From assembly GCA_003650125.1 (NCBI GenBank), contig QNFX01000014.1:1-45092 (forward strand): a stretch of 45,092 bases of DNA, in the 5' to 3' direction. The notes below the pieces were generated by a model, which was not told the origin of the DNA, made no database searches, and saw only the letters and a list, made by a program, of their open reading frames with translations. The stretch is from Campylobacterota bacterium (GTDB lineage: Bacteria; Bdellovibrionota; Bacteriovoracia; Bacteriovoracales; Bacteriovoracaceae). The position numbers and the translations under genes were made by a program. The stretch's first letter is position 1; the number at the start of each line of letters is the position of its first letter. Below are positions 20,703 through 30,052 of this stretch, piece by piece.

Positions 20703-21419
20703 TTAAATTTTGTCTTTAAACTTGACAACAATTTTCTTGGAGTGAGTCAAATTGATGATGGAAGGCATACGTTTTTTAGACTGCATATATCTGACTATTT
20801 TTTGCAACTTCTTTATTTTTATATTCCAAGCATCCTCGCCAAAGAAAACGCTCGTAGCATTTCCTTTCATTGAAAAGATAATAGTCAACTCATTTGATTC
20901 ATTAAGAATGACTTCAGCAAGCTTTGCTCTTAACTCTTTATTTAGGCCCATAACCACTCCAGTGATACTAAGCCTAATCTCTTCTTTTAAATTACCCACA
21001 GGAAGTGCTAAGAAAGGGAGCTCCTTTTTTATCTTTTTCTCTTCTTTTAGCAGAACCAGATAAGTGGGGTCATAGAGTCTGCCATTCTCAACTAATATGG
21101 CATCATAGGAATCAATGGCATTCCTCTTATAGATCTGAACCTTCATTAAGGGTTTAGGGCATTCGAGATTAAAGCCAATTATTTTTTTCAAAGGATCATA
21201 GTTAATCTGATAATTGGATAAAAAGTACTTATCCATTATCTTTTCATCACGAATATAGTCCTTGACGTCTTTTAGTGAACTATTTACCTCAAATATTTTC
21301 ACCAACTTTAAAGTAAGGCTTCCGGCCGTCCTAGAAGGGCAGCTACCAAATGAAGTACGATATTTAATCGTCGCATTTGCAGTATTTATAAGACAAAAAA
21401 TCAAAAATATATATTTCAA
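20703..21419 (-). CDS. ftsQ: Divergent FtsQ-like protein at the ftsQ position
   Basis: A 238-residue protein between murB and ftsA, the standard site of ftsQ. The C-terminal half has FtsQ-like traits: DAILVENGRLYDP (the variable strand followed by a G-x-x-x-D turn), LPFLALPVG, then SVFFGEDAWNIKIKKLQKIV and a final strand ending in KKIVVKF. The N-terminus differs from FtsQ: there is no cytoplasmic tail, and MKYIFLIFCLINTANA looks like a cleavable signal peptide (ANA, residues 14-16). A POTRA-like region would be residues 20-100 but is poorly conserved. The call rests mainly on position. Its ATG overlaps the murB stop. Confidence 0.65.
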   Translation of the reverse strand: MKYIFLIFCLINTANATIKYRTSFGSCPSRTAGSLTLKLVKIFEVNSSLKDVKDYIRDEKIMDKYFLSNYQINYDPLKKIIGFNLECPKPLMKVQIYKRNAIDSYDAILVENGRLYDPTYLVLLKEEKKIKKELPFLALPVGNLKEEIRLSITGVVMGLNKELRAKLAEVILNESNELTIIFSMKGNATSVFFGEDAWNIKIKKLQKIVRYMQSKKRMPSIINLTHSKKIVVKFKDKI

Positions 21420-22300
21420 AGTTCAACTTCCCTATTAAACTTTATTCCATAATGGAGCTCTAATTCTATTTTAACCATTTCAAGGACATTTAAAACATCA
21501 AAATAATCTGCTTCGCCTATATTTTCTAAAAAATTGCCATGTTTTGAACTTACTCTAACATCTCCGAGGCCAAATCCTTTTAAACCAAGTAAATCAATAA
21601 ATTTTCCCGCAGGGCCGCTCTCTGGATTTTTAAACATACAACCAAAGGTTTTAGCATCTAAAGGTTGAGAGCTATTTCTAAAAGCTAGGTAGTTTTTAAT
21701 CTTTTCTGAAATTTCCTTACTTATGCCTTTATGGGACATTTCCACTTCAAATATCACCTCACCTTTTTTCAGGAAATTATTAGTGCGATAGGAGAAGGAA
21801 CCATTGTTGATGACCTCCTTCCTTTCTCCCCCGGCAGGTGTGGCAATATGAACTGATTTTATCAAATTTCCAATCTCCCCCAATGAAGTTCCCGCATTCA
21901 TAAAAACGGCCCCCCCAAGACTTGCAGGAATGCCCGTAAAAGATTCCCAGCCAAGAAGTCCAAACCTAATCGCATGAGAGGTTAATACATTTAAAGTAAC
22001 CGAAGCGGGCAAAGGATAGACATCCCTTGGTGAGCTTAAAAGATCTCTATTAAAAGGAAAATCTAGTTTTAAATAAACATAATCAGGATTTGGATGAAGA
22101 ACTTGATTGGCCCCAAGGCCTAAAACTCTATAAGAATGAGCATTTTGATTTAGTTTTTTAAGTGTTTCTTTTAAGGCCGAGATCGATCTGATGGTAATAA
22201 GATCGCCGAAGGCCTTTAATCTCATAGTGGATTTATTAGTTAAATCCTTATTTATCTCGACTTTAATATCCGAAATATTATTAAGCTCTAAAAGATTCAA
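21416..22300 (-). CDS. murB: UDP-N-acetylenolpyruvoylglucosamine reductase
   Basis: FAD enzyme making UDP-MurNAc from the enolpyruvyl intermediate. The FAD-binding residues are in YRVLGLGANQVLH, and GWESFTGIPASLGGAVFMNAG is the central box. The catalytic acid position, usually Ser in (A)GSxFKNP, is Cys here (FGCMFKNP). This occurs in other MurB proteins and should be active. The length is 294. It overlaps murC by 4 nt upstream and the ftsQ-like gene by 4 nt downstream. Confidence 0.95.
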   Translation of the reverse strand: MNLLELNNISDIKVEINKDLTNKSTMRLKAFGDLITIRSISALKETLKKLNQNAHSYRVLGLGANQVLHPNPDYVYLKLDFPFNRDLLSSPRDVYPLPASVTLNVLTSHAIRFGLLGWESFTGIPASLGGAVFMNAGTSLGEIGNLIKSVHIATPAGGERKEVINNGSFSYRTNNFLKKGEVIFEVEMSHKGISKEISEKIKNYLAFRNSSQPLDAKTFGCMFKNPESGPAGKFIDLLGLKGFGLGDVRVSSKHGNFLENIGEADYFDVLNVLEMVKIELELHYGIKFNREVEL

Positions 22301-23682
22301 AAATTACTCACAATCTGTCGGGCCCTCTTTCCAATGGAGCCGGCCCCTAAAACTAAAATAGTAACTTTTTCTTTAGAGTTTGGAATTAGATGCTCTTTTA
22401 TATTATCTAACTTCTCTAACGGTGTAGCGAGTCCTGGGTAAGTCTTATTTATTTCACCAGCGAGTTTAACAGAATTGATTCCTGATATAGGGACTTCTCC
22501 TGCAGGATAAACTGGGCAGAGGATCATTTCATGGGCCCCATTAAAGCAATGAATAAATCTATCCCAACAATCTTTAGTTCTCGAAAATCTATGGGGCTCA
22601 AAGATTACTTTAAGCTTATCGGCCCCACGAGTTTCAACAACGGTTTTAATAGTTGAAGATATCTCAGTTGGATGGTGGGCATAATCATCAATGATCTCTA
22701 CATTTGGCCCTTCATATAAAAGTTCAAATCTTCTTCCGACGCCTTTAAATTTAGCGATAGAGCCAGCTATTACATCTATATCAATATTTAAATTATAGGC
22801 GAGAGCAATGGCCCCGAGAGAATTGATTACATTGTGCTCTCCAGGAATATTGATGGTGATCTTAGTGGCAAACTCTCCTTTATAGAAGAGATCATACTGT
22901 GTTTTGAATTTAAAACTAACTATATTTTCTGCCCAAAAGTCAGGTTCTTTTTCCCCTACTTCTTTCATTCCAAAGGTCGTGTAGGGTTTTTTCATTCGAC
23001 TTTTAAGTTTTTTAACCAAAGGATCATTTATATAAAGAGCACAAAGCCCATAAAAGGGAACTTTGTTGGCAAAATCTACAAAGGACTCAAAGAGTTTTTC
23101 TTTTGATCCATAAAAATCAAGGTGATCATTATCTATATTAGTAATTACAGACATAATCGGGGAGAGAAGCAAAAATGATCCATCGGATTCATCGGCCTCG
23201 GCCACGAGAAAATCTCCTTGGCCGACTTTGGCATTGCCTTCAAGATTTTCTACAATCCCGCCAATAATATAAGTAGGATCAAGCCCACCCTCTTGTAAGA
23301 TGGTAGCGAGAAAACTGGTAGTCGTTGTTTTTCCATGGGTCCCGGCAACCGCCAGTCCTACTTTAAGGCGCATAAGTTCGGCCAGCATCTCGGCCCTTTT
23401 CATTAATGGAATATTTAATTCTTTGGCATAGGCCATTTCTGGATTTGTAAAATCAATGGCGGAGCTATAAACCACTAAGGTAGCATCCTTTATATTTTCT
23501 TTTGAATGTCCGATGAAAATTTCCGCCCCGGCCTTTTTTAACCTTTCAGTATTAACGGAAGAGTTAATATCAGAACCAGAGACGAAGTGTCCTAAAGAGA
23601 TAAGGCATTCGGCGATTCCGCTCATGCCGATACCACCGATCCCAATAAAGTGTAATTTCACTTTTTTTTGCCCAGGAAACAA
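22297..23682 (-). CDS. murC: UDP-N-acetylmuramate-L-alanine ligase
   Basis: Adds L-Ala to UDP-MurNAc. The N-terminal Rossmann signature FIGIGGIGMSGIAE, the Walker A AVAGTHGKTTTTSFL, the TNIDNDHLDFYG box and DDYAHHPTEI are all canonical. Its intact P-loop makes a direct comparison for the altered one in the neighbouring murD. The length of 461 is normal. It follows ftsW after only 14 nt; murG, which often lies between them, is absent. Confidence 0.97.
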   Translation of the reverse strand: MFPGQKKVKLHFIGIGGIGMSGIAECLISLGHFVSGSDINSSVNTERLKKAGAEIFIGHSKENIKDATLVVYSSAIDFTNPEMAYAKELNIPLMKRAEMLAELMRLKVGLAVAGTHGKTTTTSFLATILQEGGLDPTYIIGGIVENLEGNAKVGQGDFLVAEADESDGSFLLLSPIMSVITNIDNDHLDFYGSKEKLFESFVDFANKVPFYGLCALYINDPLVKKLKSRMKKPYTTFGMKEVGEKEPDFWAENIVSFKFKTQYDLFYKGEFATKITINIPGEHNVINSLGAIALAYNLNIDIDVIAGSIAKFKGVGRRFELLYEGPNVEIIDDYAHHPTEISSTIKTVVETRGADKLKVIFEPHRFSRTKDCWDRFIHCFNGAHEMILCPVYPAGEVPISGINSVKLAGEINKTYPGLATPLEKLDNIKEHLIPNSKEKVTILVLGAGSIGKRARQIVSNF

Positions 23683-23696
23683 TTTTTTCTCCTAAT

Positions 23697-24845
23697 TTAA
23701 CTCTCTGAATTACTCTTGCCGAATAAAAAGAAACTCTCGCCTTCTTTTCTCAGGTTTTCCTTTACCGCAGAAAGGATCAGTCCGACACCAAAAAAATTCG
23801 AGACGAGGCTTGACCCACCGTAGCTAATAAAAGGCAGATTCAATCCTTTGGTGGGAAGCAGGCCTAGGACTACACCCATATTTAATAAAGACTGAAGGCC
23901 GATAATAAAGATCACTGTGGAGGCCGCAATGAAGGCCCATCTATTTTTCATTCTCACTGCTATTTTAAGTCCTAAATATATAAAGGTAATAAATAGGCCT
24001 ATCATTAGAGTAACGCCTACAAACCCTAGTTCTTCACCAATGACGCTGAATATAAAGTCGTTGTGGGCCTCTGGAAGATAGAATAATTTTTCATTACTAT
24101 TGCCCAGGCCCTGGCCAAAAAATCCTCCATTCGCGAAAGCGAGAAATGATTGGATAATTTGAAATCCTGAGGTCTTGGGATGTTTCCAAGGATCTAAGTA
24201 AGTGAGAAGTCTCTCAATCCTATAGGCCTTTAAAAAAAGCAGGCCCGTTCCTATAATTATTCCCGAAGTAAAAATACCATAAAAATATTTGCGGGGAAAA
24301 GAAGATAGGTAGCAAACAAAGCTAATCACCAAAAAGCACACAAAAAAGGTTCCAAAGTCCGGTTGTCTAATCAAAATAAGTAGGGGGGCCGCTAGGGGAA
24401 TAGCGTATTGTATTTTCTCCATTGATGTAAATTTAGAAAAATTCTCAAAATAGAGCATAGAACTTAAAACTAGGGTGTACTTTATTATCTCCCCTGGTTG
24501 TAAGCTAAGACCTAGGACATTGATCCAGCGATGTGCTCCCTTTACCTCTACGGCAAGGCCTGGAATAAGAGTCAAGGCCAAGACAATGATCCAAAAGAGG
24601 TGGATATAAACCCCGTATTTGACCCAAAAACTAAATTTAGAGCTTCCCACTAGCATGGCAAAAATTATTCCCACTATAATAAACGTTAATTGCCCAGAGA
24701 AAAAATAAGTAGAGCTGCCAAAATTTTCTTTAGCATAGATATAGCTAGCAGAATAAACCATGATGGCGCCAACAGATAATATTATTGCCAAGGTTATTAA
24801 AAACCATTTTGACAACTTGTTCATGTTGGTTACATTTAATGCCAT
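23697..24845 (-). CDS. ftsW: Peptidoglycan glycosyltransferase FtsW
   Basis: SEDS-family polymerase of lipid II at the division site. About ten membrane segments are visible, with the conserved KGAHRWINVLGLSLQPGEIIKY box, the periplasmic catalytic-region QGLGNSNEKLFYLPEAHNDFIF and the end GLLPTKGLNLPFISYGGSS. The length of 382 is normal. Either the ATG at 24845 or the one at 24824 could be the start; neither has a clear ribosome binding site. It lies 20 nt after murD. Confidence 0.95.
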   Translation of the reverse strand: MALNVTNMNKLSKWFLITLAIILSVGAIMVYSASYIYAKENFGSSTYFFSGQLTFIIVGIIFAMLVGSSKFSFWVKYGVYIHLFWIIVLALTLIPGLAVEVKGAHRWINVLGLSLQPGEIIKYTLVLSSMLYFENFSKFTSMEKIQYAIPLAAPLLILIRQPDFGTFFVCFLVISFVCYLSSFPRKYFYGIFTSGIIIGTGLLFLKAYRIERLLTYLDPWKHPKTSGFQIIQSFLAFANGGFFGQGLGNSNEKLFYLPEAHNDFIFSVIGEELGFVGVTLMIGLFITFIYLGLKIAVRMKNRWAFIAASTVIFIIGLQSLLNMGVVLGLLPTKGLNLPFISYGGSSLVSNFFGVGLILSAVKENLRKEGESFFLFGKSNSES

Positions 24846-24865: not shown

Positions 24866-26248
24866 CTAAAGTTGATAAACCAACTTTTTAAAGTAATTAC
24901 CTCTTTCCACATAATCTCGGAAAAAATCCGATGCTGGATTTCCTGGAGAGAGAAGAATTACATCTCCAGTTCTCGATTTTTGATAGGCAAAAAGAACAGA
25001 TTCTTCAAAAGAACCTACGATATAAGTTTGATTAAACTCACCTAAAGCGCGGTTTAATCTTTCTTTACACTCTCCCACGAGTACGATGACTCTGACATTT
25101 TTAACCATCTCATTAACATATGGGTCAAAATCGATATCTTCGTTCTCTTTTCCACCAGCGATTAGAATCACTTGCCTTTTAAAAGAATGGGTCGATTTTA
25201 TCAACTCTTCCATCGTTTCGGCCTTAGAATCGTTATAAAAAGAAACCCCATTTTTTTCCATGAGGAATTCAAGACGGTGAGGAATTCCCGGAAATTTTTC
25301 AATACAAGACTGGATTGATTTGTCGGAAACATTCATCGCCTTTAAGGCGGTGACGGCAGCTAAAAGATTTTCTCGGTTATGTTGGCCTACTATTCTCATA
25401 GTGGTTACAACAAAGTCTGAATGATAATTTATATTGCAATTAATCCGCCGATTGTGAAAATGAGTCCCTTGAATTTCATTCATCACACCCATTTTTACGA
25501 AAGATTTTCTGGAGTACCAATATTTCTTACAATTAGCATTTCTAAAGAAAGCATTATTGGCCAATTTATCAAAATTGATCACTAAAATATCATCAGGTGA
25601 GAGTGTTTTAATAATTGATAATTTAGTTTCAATATATTCGCCAGCAGATTTAAAATGGATTTTAGAATAGTGCTCACCAATATTGGTAAAGACCACCATC
25701 TGAGGATGGAAATTCGTCAGGCATTTCATCTGCACAGCAGAGACTTCAACTACCACGTAGTCGATTTCATCTTGATTTGGAAGCATACAGTATTCGATAA
25801 AAGGAGCTTCTGAAGTTCCTCCCACGAAAACATTCTTACCTTCAAGTTTTAAAGCAAAGCCAATCATATGGGCCACAGTAGTTCTGCCAAAAGAGCCACA
25901 AACAGCTATGATTGGTTTTCTACACAATTTATTGGCCAGAGCAAATTCTGAATAAACTTCTTTCCCTGCTCTTCTGGCCATCTCTAGCTGGGGAAGTTCA
26001 GGGTTTACAGCGGGAGAATAAACGATTACGTCCGCTTCGAGAAAATCTTCCTCTCGATGTTCACCAAATACCATCTGAGGATTGGGAGTAATTTTTTTAA
26101 GTTTTTTAATTGCTTTATTGAGATCAAATATAGGCTTGATATCTGTGACTTTAATTTCACATTCAAGTGTATTGAAAAAATTGATTAGGGTGAATCCCGT
26201 TCTTCCAATCCCAACTACAAGGATTTTTTTATTTTTAAATCGATCCAT
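24866..26248 (-). CDS. murD: MurD-like ligase with degenerate ATP-binding site
   Basis: At the murD position, and recognisable as UDP-MurNAc-L-Ala-D-Glu ligase by the N-terminal Rossmann fold (VVGIGRTGFT), GQHNREN (288-294), HRLE (324-327), NDSKA (339-343) and LSPGNPASDFFRDYVERG. However, the Walker A loop, normally GTNGKTT, reads GSFGRTT (118-124): the phosphate-binding Lys is Arg122 and the Asn is Phe120. SSFQL is SAVQM, and the DHLDRH metal-side box is GEHYSKIH (191-198). The lysine that is carbamylated in the family (about 209) is kept. The 460 residues and the whole fold are intact, so this is substitution, not truncation. It may be an altered or weakened ligase. Confidence 0.85.
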   Translation of the reverse strand: MDRFKNKKILVVGIGRTGFTLINFFNTLECEIKVTDIKPIFDLNKAIKKLKKITPNPQMVFGEHREEDFLEADVIVYSPAVNPELPQLEMARRAGKEVYSEFALANKLCRKPIIAVCGSFGRTTVAHMIGFALKLEGKNVFVGGTSEAPFIEYCMLPNQDEIDYVVVEVSAVQMKCLTNFHPQMVVFTNIGEHYSKIHFKSAGEYIETKLSIIKTLSPDDILVINFDKLANNAFFRNANCKKYWYSRKSFVKMGVMNEIQGTHFHNRRINCNINYHSDFVVTTMRIVGQHNRENLLAAVTALKAMNVSDKSIQSCIEKFPGIPHRLEFLMEKNGVSFYNDSKAETMEELIKSTHSFKRQVILIAGGKENEDIDFDPYVNEMVKNVRVIVLVGECKERLNRALGEFNQTYIVGSFEESVLFAYQKSRTGDVILLSPGNPASDFFRDYVERGNYFKKLVYQL

Positions 26249-26258
26249 CCTACTCTCC

Positions 26259-27335
26259 TTACCTAATTTTAAGGGTTGCTACGGAAAGAATGGCCAAAAA
26301 TACACTTATAATCCAAAACCTAACTATTACCTTCGGTTCGGGCCATCCCTTTAATTCAAAGTGATGGTGAATTGGTGCCATTTTAAAAATTCTTTTCTTC
26401 CGCAGTTTATACGAGCCCACTTGCAAGATGACTGAGATGGTTTCAATAACGAAAATCCCACCTATTAATAAAAATAGGATCTCACTCTTACAAAGGACTG
26501 CTACAATACCTAGCACTCCTCCCAAAGACAGGGAACCCACGTCCCCCATAAAAATCTGGGCAGGGTAGGAGTTGTACCATAAAAAGCCGACTCCTGCACC
26601 TATTATGGCCATGGCGAGCACCGACAATTCTCCAGCATTTTCAATATAAGGAATAAAAAGATAGGCCGAAATCTCTTTATGACCTGTTGCATACGCAATA
26701 ACTGCCAAAGAAGATGCGCTGGTCAATATAGGTCCAATGGCCAGTCCATCTAGGCCATCAGTTAGATTAACCGCGTTACTAGAGCCCACAATAACAAAAG
26801 CACCTAGTAGGAGATAAGACCATCCCATGTCTATAACTGGCCCTTTTACAAAGGGAACATAGAGATTGGTATCTATTATTTCAAATTTGATTAAATACCA
26901 CATGGCCAAAAAGGCAGTTAAGAATTGCCAAACTAACTTACCTTTAGCGGAAAACCCTTTGGAATTCTTTTTTAAGACCATCAGGTAGTCATCTGTAAGA
27001 CCTAAAAAAAATAGAGAAGTCATCACAAAGAGGGAGGTTAGCACTGGGGGTGAAGTAAAGTTGCCAAAAAATAGCAGGGCAATCCAAATACTACCTAAAA
27101 GAAAAACTCCTCCCATAGTAGGGGTTCCGGCCTTTTTATAATGAGATTCTGGCCCATCTGTTCTTATCACCTGGCCAAATTGTCTTAGCTTCATGAAGGC
27201 GATAAATCTTTTGCCCCATAAAATAGAAACGGCCGTGGCCAAAAGAAAGGCCATCAGTGAGCGAAACGTAATATAGCGAAAAATATTAAACGCTGCGAAG
27301 TTTTCGCTTAATGGATAAAGTAAGTGATAAAACAT
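26259..27335 (-). CDS. mraY: Phospho-MurNAc-pentapeptide transferase MraY
   Basis: Integral membrane enzyme that makes lipid I. About ten membrane helices, with the Asp-rich FLGLTDDYLMV, the loop NLTDGLDGLAIGP and the Mg2+-binding region MGDVGSLSLGG, and the C-terminal MAPIHHHFELKGW His motif. The length of 358 is standard. It lies 7 nt from murF and 10 nt from murD. No anomaly seen. Confidence 0.97.
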   Translation of the reverse strand: MFYHLLYPLSENFAAFNIFRYITFRSLMAFLLATAVSILWGKRFIAFMKLRQFGQVIRTDGPESHYKKAGTPTMGGVFLLGSIWIALLFFGNFTSPPVLTSLFVMTSLFFLGLTDDYLMVLKKNSKGFSAKGKLVWQFLTAFLAMWYLIKFEIIDTNLYVPFVKGPVIDMGWSYLLLGAFVIVGSSNAVNLTDGLDGLAIGPILTSASSLAVIAYATGHKEISAYLFIPYIENAGELSVLAMAIIGAGVGFLWYNSYPAQIFMGDVGSLSLGGVLGIVAVLCKSEILFLLIGGIFVIETISVILQVGSYKLRKKRIFKMAPIHHHFELKGWPEPKVIVRFWIISVFLAILSVATLKIR

Positions 27336-27342
27336 AAATCTT

Positions 27343-28689
27343 TTAGGTTATATCGAGTAATGACTCGAGTTGTAAAGAGCGAGAGCCTTTTAAAAAGAAA
27401 TATTTGAATGACTTTAAAAGTAAAGGCCAATCTTTTTCAAAGTTTGGTTTATTTAAATAAATTTTTGCTGGATTTTTATACCCTTTCCCATAATTTTCAG
27501 AAAACCTGCCAAGGAAAGCGACATTTTTAACGCTTAATTCTTTGAGCAAGGATCCTATGTTGTGATGAAAGGTCTCAGACTCTTCACCTAGCTCGTTCAT
27601 ATCGCCAAGAATAAATAAACATTCTTCCTGAGGAATATTATAAGTCTTGGTAAACTTAATAAAGGCATTTAGGGATGCTTTCATGGAATCTGGATTGGCA
27701 TTATAGGCATCTAGAAAAAACTTTTTCTCTCCTTTTTCAATCCATAGTGAACGATTATTTCCTGGAGTAAAACTGCTTGCTGCAGAAATAAAGACCTCTT
27801 TTTTTGAGGAAAAAAGAGAATAGGATAGCAGGTAGGCGGCAGCTAAATTTTCAAAGTTATGCCGTCCCATTAGATGTTCATTTTTTAAAATTACATTGCC
27901 TTTTAAATTAACTTGATTTTGTTGCCAGATGTCGCCATTTTTTTCACCAAAGGTAACAAGCCCTGTAAAAGGCCTAACACTATCAAGATAGGGATCATCA
28001 ATATTTATTACAAACGTTCCCTTGCCTTTGACAAAGTCTAGTAGTTCTCGCTTTTCAGCAAAAATATTTTCCACCGACTTAAAAAACTCTAAATGGGCGG
28101 GTCCTATGTTGGTTATGATCCCATTATCAGGACAGGCCAGTTCACAGAGAAATTTAATTTCTCCCGGGTGATTAGTTCCCATCTCTACAATAGCTACTTG
28201 ATGATTCTCATTTAAACCTAATAAGGTAAAAGGAACGCCTAGATGATTATTAAAATTTCCCGTCGTTTTATGAATCGCTCCTGGATAGGCGGTATGCAAA
28301 AGATGATAAAGCATTTCTTTGGTGGTGGTTTTACCATTAGACCCTGTGATTCCAATAACAATTTTATCTTCTTTTTTCCAATCCATTAGGTGAAGATGGG
28401 CGAGTTCCTGGAGATATTTTATGGTATCTGAAACCTCGATAAAAACCGTCTGAGGATAAGTCTCTACAAGCTTTTTTGAAATTTTATTTACAACCACTAG
28501 AGGACAACCACGACTCAAGATCTCGGCCAAAAAATCTGTCGCATCAAATTTATCACCCTTTAAGGCAATAAATCCCTGTCCTTTTTCATGGGACCTACTA
28601 TCCCATGAAAGATTCATGAGGCCATCATTTAACTCTCCCCAAGCTTTCAAAAAGCTCTCTGGTTTGGTGAAAAGTTTATTTGCTATCAT
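27343..28689 (-). CDS. murF: UDP-MurNAc-tripeptide:D-Ala-D-Ala ligase
   Basis: Adds the terminal D-Ala-D-Ala. The Walker A GITGSNGKTTTKEML is canonical, followed by VEMGTNHPGEI, NIGPAHLEFF and DAYNANPDSM, all typical of MurF. The length of 448 is normal. Its first 14 nt overlap the end of murE, so translation is coupled. The intact ATP site contrasts with that of murD nearby. Confidence 0.96.
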   Translation of the reverse strand: MIANKLFTKPESFLKAWGELNDGLMNLSWDSRSHEKGQGFIALKGDKFDATDFLAEILSRGCPLVVVNKISKKLVETYPQTVFIEVSDTIKYLQELAHLHLMDWKKEDKIVIGITGSNGKTTTKEMLYHLLHTAYPGAIHKTTGNFNNHLGVPFTLLGLNENHQVAIVEMGTNHPGEIKFLCELACPDNGIITNIGPAHLEFFKSVENIFAEKRELLDFVKGKGTFVINIDDPYLDSVRPFTGLVTFGEKNGDIWQQNQVNLKGNVILKNEHLMGRHNFENLAAAYLLSYSLFSSKKEVFISAASSFTPGNNRSLWIEKGEKKFFLDAYNANPDSMKASLNAFIKFTKTYNIPQEECLFILGDMNELGEESETFHHNIGSLLKELSVKNVAFLGRFSENYGKGYKNPAKIYLNKPNFEKDWPLLLKSFKYFFLKGSRSLQLESLLDIT

Positions 28690-30052
28690 TTTTAAAATCC
28701 TCCACCACTTTAAAGTCGCTAAAGGGATATTTCACTCCGTCAATCTCCTGGTACTTTTCATGCCCTTTCCCGGCGACTAAAAGTATTTCACCCTCTTTTA
28801 GATCGGAAAGTGCCAACACCAAGGCCTCTTTTCTTCCCACAATAACTTGGGGGTTAATATTTTTCATACCCGCTTTAATCTGGGAAATTATTTCAACTGG
28901 ATTTTCTCCTCGCGGGTTATCTGAGGTCAAATATATTTTGCCTTTATCCACTAACTTCGCGGCCATCTCCCCCATTAAGGGCCTTTTACCTCGGTCTCGA
29001 TCACCACCGCAGCCAAATAAGAGGTTTAATTTTTTATGAGGAAATTTATTTTTTAAATCTTGTAAAATATTTTTCAGAGCATCTGGAGTGTGAGCGTAGT
29101 CAATAACTACAAGGCCTTCCCCCACGTCCACAAGAGAGCTTCTGCCCTCAGGACCTTTAAGTTTATTTAAATCAATCTTTTTAATTGATCCCCAGACCTG
29201 TTCATTTACCTCAAGTGCGACCTCTAGATTTTGTTGATTAAATCCGCCCTTAAAAGTTAAAGGAATATCAACATATCCTCTTTCATTTAAGTTTTTAGCA
29301 ATGCAAAGATCACTTCCCTCTAAATTCTCAATTAGGTCTCTTTGCTCTACCGGGATAATTAGAGGCGTTTTTATATAGTTTAATATTTTTTTCTTGGCCT
29401 TAAAGTAATCATCCATATTGTGATGATAGTCTAAATGATCTTGAGAAAAATTAGTCCAAATCGCTCCATCTAACTTGAGATCATATAAACGCTCTTGTTC
29501 TAATCCGTGACTTGAAACTTCAATAAAAAAAGCGTCAAAGTCTTGCTGATATTTAAAAAGAATTTTTCTAAGCAAAATATAAGAAGGAGTAGTCATGCCG
29601 AAATCATTCAAAAGCGTTTCACATGTATTTATTCCTAAGGTTCCAATACTTATGGCCTTATATCCTAGGGCAGATGAAATTTCCCTTGATAGGTGTGCAA
29701 CCGTAGTTTTTCCATTGGTTCCGGTAATTCCTATTAATTTAAAAGAATCCCTTTTAAGTGGATAGAACTTATCCATTACAATCTTCTGCACCTTTAAAAA
29801 ATCTTTAATCAATATTAAATTTTTAGGCCTAAGGCCTTCAGGGATGCGATTTACCACGAGCAGAAAATCGCCCTCACTATACCTTTTAAAAAATTTATCT
29901 TCTTTACCTGCTTCAAAAAAATAAAAGATAATTTGACCCGATTTGGCGGTATCAAGATTAATAGAGATATCACTATAGGTTAAGGAGTCATCAATATCTA
30001 TGATCTCCAATATATAAGGGCCTATAAGTTGGGTTAGTTCATTATTATTCAT
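28676..30052 (-). CDS. murE: UDP-MurNAc-tripeptide synthetase, meso-DAP type
   Basis: Adds the third residue of the stem peptide. The P-loop GITGTNGKTTVAHL is canonical, with DFDAFFIEVSSHGLEQERL and NFSQDHLDYHHNM. The substrate-specificity loop reads DNPRGENP, the form that goes with meso-diaminopimelate rather than lysine. The length is 458. Its start overlaps ftsI by 8 nt and its end overlaps murF by 14 nt. Confidence 0.96.
   Translation of the reverse strand: MNNNELTQLIGPYILEIIDIDDSLTYSDISINLDTAKSGQIIFYFFEAGKEDKFFKRYSEGDFLLVVNRIPEGLRPKNLILIKDFLKVQKIVMDKFYPLKRDSFKLIGITGTNGKTTVAHLSREISSALGYKAISIGTLGINTCETLLNDFGMTTPSYILLRKILFKYQQDFDAFFIEVSSHGLEQERLYDLKLDGAIWTNFSQDHLDYHHNMDDYFKAKKKILNYIKTPLIIPVEQRDLIENLEGSDLCIAKNLNERGYVDIPLTFKGGFNQQNLEVALEVNEQVWGSIKKIDLNKLKGPEGRSSLVDVGEGLVVIDYAHTPDALKNILQDLKNKFPHKKLNLLFGCGGDRDRGKRPLMGEMAAKLVDKGKIYLTSDNPRGENPVEIISQIKAGMKNINPQVIVGRKEALVLALSDLKEGEILLVAGKGHEKYQEIDGVKYPFSDFKVVEDFKNDSK

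Follow-up and report, generated by a model that had tools for sequence, protein, structure and literature searches.

A conserved MurD-like protein of the dcw cluster in Bacteriovoracaceae lacks catalytic residues and is accompanied by an intact MurD encoded elsewhere

The window analyzed in this work, i.e., the whole stretch of 45,092 nucleotides of contig QNFX01000014.1, harbors a set of dcw genes in which the position between mraY and ftsW is occupied by a gene encoding a MurD-like protein with an unusual P-loop, GSFGRTT. Two questions are raised by this locus: whether a protein carrying Arg in place of the P-loop Lys might still ligate D-Glu and, if not, which protein performs the ligation and what the dcw copy is retained for. 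The features of the region are reported in Table 1. The unusual P-loop is present as the initial annotation had described it, and the same is true for the intact P-loops of MurC, MurE, and MurF encoded by the same cluster. A 238-aa ORF with no Pfam match is located between murB and ftsA (20703-21419), in the usual place of ftsQ.

Table 1. Features of the dcw MurD gene and of its neighbors in the window (residue names such as Lys115 follow the E. coli numbering).
Feature	Position	Strand	Basis
dcw-cluster MurD-like protein (pseudo-MurD), 460 aa, ATG start	24866..26248	-	ORF; TIGR01087 284.5 bits; AF2/Foldseek; family-wide loss of catalytic residues
Degenerate P-loop GSFGRTT, residues 118-124; R122 at the Lys115 position	25877..25897	-	R in 101/101 distinct family sequences
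Degenerate metal/UMA loop IGEHYSKIHF, residues 190-199; Y194 at the His183 position	25652..25681	-	His in 0/101 of the family; outgroup dcw MurDs retain it
Segment under new constraint, candidate interface, residues 241-285 (KKYWYSRKSFVKMGVMNEIQGTHFHNRRINCNINYHSDFVVTTMR)	25394..25528	-	Hardly varies among 101 pseudo-MurDs; varies among 57 dcw proteins of single-MurD genomes
NDSKAET, residues 339-345; D340 and K342 (Asp317, Lys319) kept, E344 for Thr321	25214..25234	-	D in 100/101, K in 100/101, E at T321 in 92/101
mraY, directly upstream of pseudo-MurD	26259..27335	-	ORF; adjoins in 111/113 family loci
ftsW, directly downstream of pseudo-MurD	23697..24845	-	ORF; adjoins in most family loci
murC, P-loop GTHGKTT intact	22297..23682	-	TIGR01082 483 bits
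murF, P-loop GSNGKTT intact	27343..28689	-	TIGR01143 319 bits
murE, P-loop GTNGKTT intact	28676..30052	-	TIGR01085 324 bits

The score of the dcw protein on the MurD equivalog TIGR01087 (Table 1) is above the cut-off of 211.95, and Pfam recognizes all three Mur ligase domains (N-terminal, middle, and C-terminal). The AlphaFold2 model, built on an input of 20 family sequences, has a mean pLDDT of 85.3 and a pTM of 0.79; when it was searched against the PDB with Foldseek, the first 33 matches were all MurD, and the E value to the S. agalactiae enzyme (3lk7) was 5e-34. Compared with canonical MurD (TIGR01087; E. coli PDB 2jfg/4uag; S. agalactiae 3lk7), the dcw copy shares fold, length, mraY-ftsW position, equivalog score, and the ND-K and HR motifs, whereas the P-loop Lys, His183, Asn138, Lys348, Thr321, and the SSFQLE box are replaced, and catalysis does not appear likely. 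The protein belongs to the MurD family by score, fold, and position; its catalytic residues speak against listing it among active MurDs.

The extent of the loss was evaluated on 101 distinct dcw sequences from Bacteriovoracaceae (Halobacteriovorax, Bacteriovorax, and relatives). At the threshold applied, the dcw copy, full or partial, was retrieved from 122 of the order's 129 genomes, although a few of the lowest-scoring among these 122 are matches to the off-cluster copy described below; it was retrieved from all the 73 good-quality genomes. The position of Lys115 is Arg in 101/101 sequences, which rules out chance, a sequencing error, or one odd strain as the origin of the motif. It had been recognized from the beginning that the observation would lose its meaning if ordinary MurD enzymes widely shared GSFGRTT; this motif occurs in none of the 57 genomes of the phylum possessing a single MurD, and the two residue-aligned PDB MurDs have Lys, so that an ordinary variant can also be ruled out. 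The proposed alignment with related MurDs gave the same picture, with the Arg P-loop extending to the whole family and His183 being kept in the outgroup dcw MurDs.

The P-loop is only one of the sites involved. His183 and Lys348 are lost in all the 101 family sequences (Tyr194 and Asn369 in the window copy), Asn138 is lost in 100 of them (Thr in 98; Thr145 in the window copy), Thr321 has been replaced by Glu in 92 (Glu344), and Ser415 corresponds to Ala439 of the window protein in the alignment to E. coli MurD. The initial annotation had correctly read the P-loop and had missed the changes at N138, T321, K348, and S415, as well as the correspondence of H183 to Tyr194. It had also considered the carbamylated-Lys position (Lys198) as kept; this holds for the window copy (Lys209) but not across the family, in which Lys is found in 63/101 sequences and is lost in 38/101. 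Glu157, Asn271, Arg302, Asp317, and Lys319 are kept in 99-100/101 sequences. It is known that the UMA-binding residues of E. coli MurD include Asn138 and His183 (PMC12844806), and that the carbamylated Lys198 supports the metal, mutants at this position being strongly impaired (PMC4816537). The loss thus covers the substrate, metal, and phosphate sites, i.e., more than one residue.

These data bear directly on the idea that ligase or ATPase activity persists in the dcw protein, with Arg taking over the role of the P-loop Lys. The K to R substitution is a conservative one, the loop is otherwise kept as GSxGRTT, and E157, D317, K319, R302, and N271 are retained, together with the carbamylated-Lys position in the window copy; however, practically every sequence has lost His183, Asn138, and Lys348 at once, 92/101 have lost Thr321, and 38/101 the carbamylated Lys. 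His183 and Asn138 bind UMA (PMC12844806), mutants of Lys198 are strongly impaired (PMC4816537), and an intact MurD is present in the same genome. Such a reading is, therefore, very unlikely. The altered ATP-site chemistry that had been offered at the outset as one of two options is also unlikely, given that UMA, metal, and D-Glu residues have been lost together with the Lys. Some residual nucleotide or other chemistry might still be carried out by the window copy, considering the kept E157, D317, K319, and carbamylated-Lys position.

The other option, an intact MurD elsewhere in the genome and a new job for this copy, is supported at the sequence level. When the MurD model was run on the genome to which the window belongs (103 contigs, 2.61 Mb in total, completeness 93%), it disclosed, as had been suggested, a second murD with GTNGKTT, encoding a protein of 411 aa (318 bits) located outside the cluster on contig C7 (C7:59413-60648, i.e., L009:9414-10649) and carrying also the ELSSFQLE and NDAKST motifs. 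A profile search for off-cluster MurD retrieved it from almost all genomes of the order and from about 70 of the 73 good family genomes; it was not detected in three of the latter (G022, G033, and G067), which are nominally at least 90% complete, fragmented, and all endowed with the dcw copy. Lys115, Asn138, Glu157, His183, Lys198, Asp317, Lys319, Thr321, and Ser415 are kept in 32/32 off-cluster MurDs of the family, and the Lys348 position is Arg in 31/32. The two proteins of the window genome are paralogues with the same domain plan; unlike the dcw copy, the off-cluster one possesses GTNGKTT and intact UMA, metal, and carbamyl-Lys residues, is fast evolving, and is encoded outside dcw. Within the family, the off-cluster locus is syntenic, with a divergent Methyltransf_32 gene, an M24 peptidase, and a type III glutamine synthetase, and for this reason the gene can be regarded as ancestral in the family.

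In one genome (G011), the off-cluster murD is directly followed by a gene encoding a 746-aa glutamate racemase-MurC (MurI-MurC) fusion (L090:918-3158), and a homologue of glutamate racemase is present in the window genome (C33:23304-23999), its 135 bits being slightly below the equivalog cut-off of 146.65. The fusion neighbor and the MurI homologue support, without proving it, the notion that the off-cluster gene may encode the working D-Glu ligase. A glutamate racemase match is absent in three Bacteriovoracaceae genomes, each at least 96% complete (G004, G009, and G021), where candidate sources of D-Glu are another enzyme, a MurL-type epimerase, or the prey. A different pathway is represented by MurD2/MurL of Xanthomonas oryzae, an L-Glu ligase and an epimerase (the name MurD2 is already taken by this ligase), in which Glu197 and R358 set the specificity for L-Glu (PMC8788868). 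The off-cluster MurDs of Bacteriovoracaceae (L009:9414-10649 and relatives) have Arg in place of Lys348, Pro in place of Ala414, and Phe in place of Leu416, i.e., the equivalents of R358, P433, and F435, three of the four Glu-site changes of Xanthomonas MurD2. However, they lack an equivalent of Glu197, the corresponding Asp182 position being occupied by Ser, Asn, or Thr, with the Arg358 equivalent in 31/32; moreover, the Xanthomonas-type pathway would be expected in a genome lacking glutamate racemase, while the window genome has a MurI homologue. On the basis of these two differences, a Xanthomonas-type L-Glu ligase is not favored.

If the dcw gene had simply become redundant after the acquisition of the second MurD, it might be decaying, and the loss of catalytic residues would be the expected first step. 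The degree of conservation tells otherwise. Averaged over the family, the identity to the window protein amounts to 70% for dcw MurD, which is the most conserved dcw protein measured, followed by MraY (69%), FtsA (62%), FtsW and MurC (54% each), MurB (48%), and MurE and MurF (42% each); off-cluster MurD stands at 38%. The identity of dcw MurD ranges from 58 to 94% within the family, and no complete family locus has an interrupted or shortened gene. The dN/dS of dcw murD, calculated for the window genome and its nearest relative, is 0.019, the lowest of nine dcw genes, with dS near saturation; for this reason, the values are NG86 estimates only. Decay is contradicted by these data, with full length in all complete loci, that identity range, that dN/dS in the closest pair, and a conservation exceeding that of MurC, MurE, and MurF; it was rejected, being hardly credible at all. 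The pattern is one of a gene kept under strong purifying selection.

The constraint acting on the protein has also moved. When the 101 family dcw MurDs were compared with 57 dcw MurDs from single-MurD genomes, the positions where conservation has been lost were found mostly in the active site (G73, N113, the SSFQLE box, H183, D185, R186, H267, and S415, in E. coli numbering), and the newly fixed residues include T110C, K115R, N138T, and T321E. Conservation has been gained chiefly at residues 241-285 (WYSRKSF...GV..EIQGTHFH.RRI); in both sets, the C-terminal domain is conserved. Such a shift is the pattern expected for a protein kept for binding rather than for chemistry. The genomic position is conserved as well: the gene abuts mraY in 111 of the 113 family loci examined, with ftsW usually on the other side.

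Two main alternatives to a structural or regulatory role have to be considered at this point. According to the first one, the dcw protein might be an inactive heteromer partner that allosterically activates the fast-evolving off-cluster MurD, in a prozyme-like fashion. MurD is known as a monomer, which counts against a heteromer of this kind. Moreover, with a mean identity of only 38%, the off-cluster MurD has diverged widely, so that the evolutionary rates of the two putative partners are unmatched, and it shows no obvious constraint that would correspond to the newly constrained segment of the dcw protein. In favor of this idea, the dcw copy is nearly always accompanied by an active-looking paralogue and retains the MurD fold and the interdomain nucleotide residues; a precedent exists in the trypanosome AdoMetDC prozyme, a dead paralogue activating its enzyme (PMC6221367), and which the dcw copy resembles in the loss of catalytic residues, the strong conservation, and the active-looking paralogue. 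On balance, activation of the off-cluster MurD is considered unlikely. The second alternative is that of a protein with a different activity or of a sensor of precursors or nucleotides, e.g., one gating MraY or FtsW according to the level of UDP-MurNAc-peptide or ATP/ADP. It agrees with the kept residues on the adenine-nucleotide side, with the fixed position beside mraY and ftsW, and with the newly fixed residues of the former substrate cleft (T110C, N138T, and T321E); against it, the loss of the UMA-binding N138 and H183 suggests that the ancestral precursor would probably be bound poorly, and a sensor appears quite unlikely.

The probable explanation, in our opinion, is that the dcw MurD, encoded beside mraY and ftsW, has been retained because of a structural or regulatory role, catalysis having moved to the off-cluster MurD. 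Loss of catalytic residues throughout a clade with retention of the fold is what distinguishes a pseudoenzyme, and both are observed here in sequences and in the AF2/Foldseek comparison. The gene product would be a pseudoenzyme, descended from the ancestral MurD of the dcw cluster, that keeps the three-domain fold and most of the adenine-nucleotide contacts, and that would have lost phosphate transfer (K115R), the binding of the metal and of UDP-MurNAc-L-Ala (N138T and H183Y), and that of D-Glu (K348 and T321). Ligation would be performed by the intact off-cluster copy, and we infer for the dcw copy a new job, most likely that of a non-catalytic structural or regulatory member of a cytoplasmic Mur/MraY/FtsW assembly, acting perhaps in a nucleotide-bound form through the newly constrained central segment and the conserved C-terminal domain. 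Binding of ATP or ADP is possible, since the residues on the nucleotide side are kept. A non-catalytic role in an assembly is plausible because MurD, MurE, and MurF bind MurG and MreB (PMC6420597). Counted against a scaffold role is the fact that murG, the proposed scaffold hub, lies outside the cluster in the subclade of the window: it is missing between ftsW and murC (22297-24845) and is found on another contig (G000:C2:74519-75502), and the same relocation is observed in seven other genomes (G003, G007, G010, G014, G029, G031, and G034), while murG is kept near murD in G019, G021, G028, G036, and G137. Searches of the open-access literature disclosed no description of a Mur-ligase pseudoenzyme in bacteria or of a second MurD in Bdellovibrio-like bacteria.

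A similar association can be observed in other families of the phylum. In five of them (f6, f7, f15, f17, and f22), the residues of the off-cluster MurD are those of the E. coli enzyme, and Asn138 or a different core residue is missing from the dcw MurD. When six core residues were scored (K115, N138, E157, H183, K198, and K319), at least one was found to be lost in the dcw MurD of 37/38 two-MurD genomes vs. 0/57 single-MurD genomes, the latter being those where a sensitive search disclosed only one MurD. In f6 (perhaps Bdellovibrionaceae), the core loss is that of Asn138 alone, with rare exceptions, and for this reason it is quite possible that the dcw MurD of this family is active. In the phylogenetic analysis (quick trees with some long branches), the dcw MurDs form one clade and the off-cluster copies fall in at least three places, those of different lineages having separate origins. 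The two-copy state has three to four independent origins, all in the expected direction and too few for a significant sign test.

A broader scenario can be put forward tentatively, and with some doubt: the gain of an unlinked MurD, which would have taken place separately in three or more lineages of Bdellovibrionota, might have freed the dcw MurD from catalysis, the latter being kept as a non-catalytic part of a precursor machine associated with MraY and FtsW, and in Bacteriovoracaceae having become more conserved than any other wall-synthesis protein of the cluster. If this were true, MurD would combine two functions that can be separated, the second one being structural or regulatory. The annotation of MurD, an essential enzyme and a drug target, relies on its place in the dcw cluster, and in Bacteriovoracaceae this annotation is probably on the wrong gene. 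A Mur ligase that is predicted to be dead, and that experiences stronger selection than the active neighbors, would also represent a natural separation-of-function allele for the multi-enzyme Mur complex, long suspected and poorly proven, and would provide a connection, open to testing, with wall biology in predatory bacteria.

A closed genome of f6 (G234), where only the off-cluster MurD is found, was considered as a natural experiment and dropped, mraY also being missing and a real loss being indistinguishable from a mis-assembly; in this genome (L342, i.e., G234:C1:624000-643000), no mraY over the cut-off and no dcw murD were found, and murE-murF are followed by a 3908-aa ORF. In f7, the off-cluster murD is located beside a MurF-like gene (L086:4721-6010 and L093:7282-8300).
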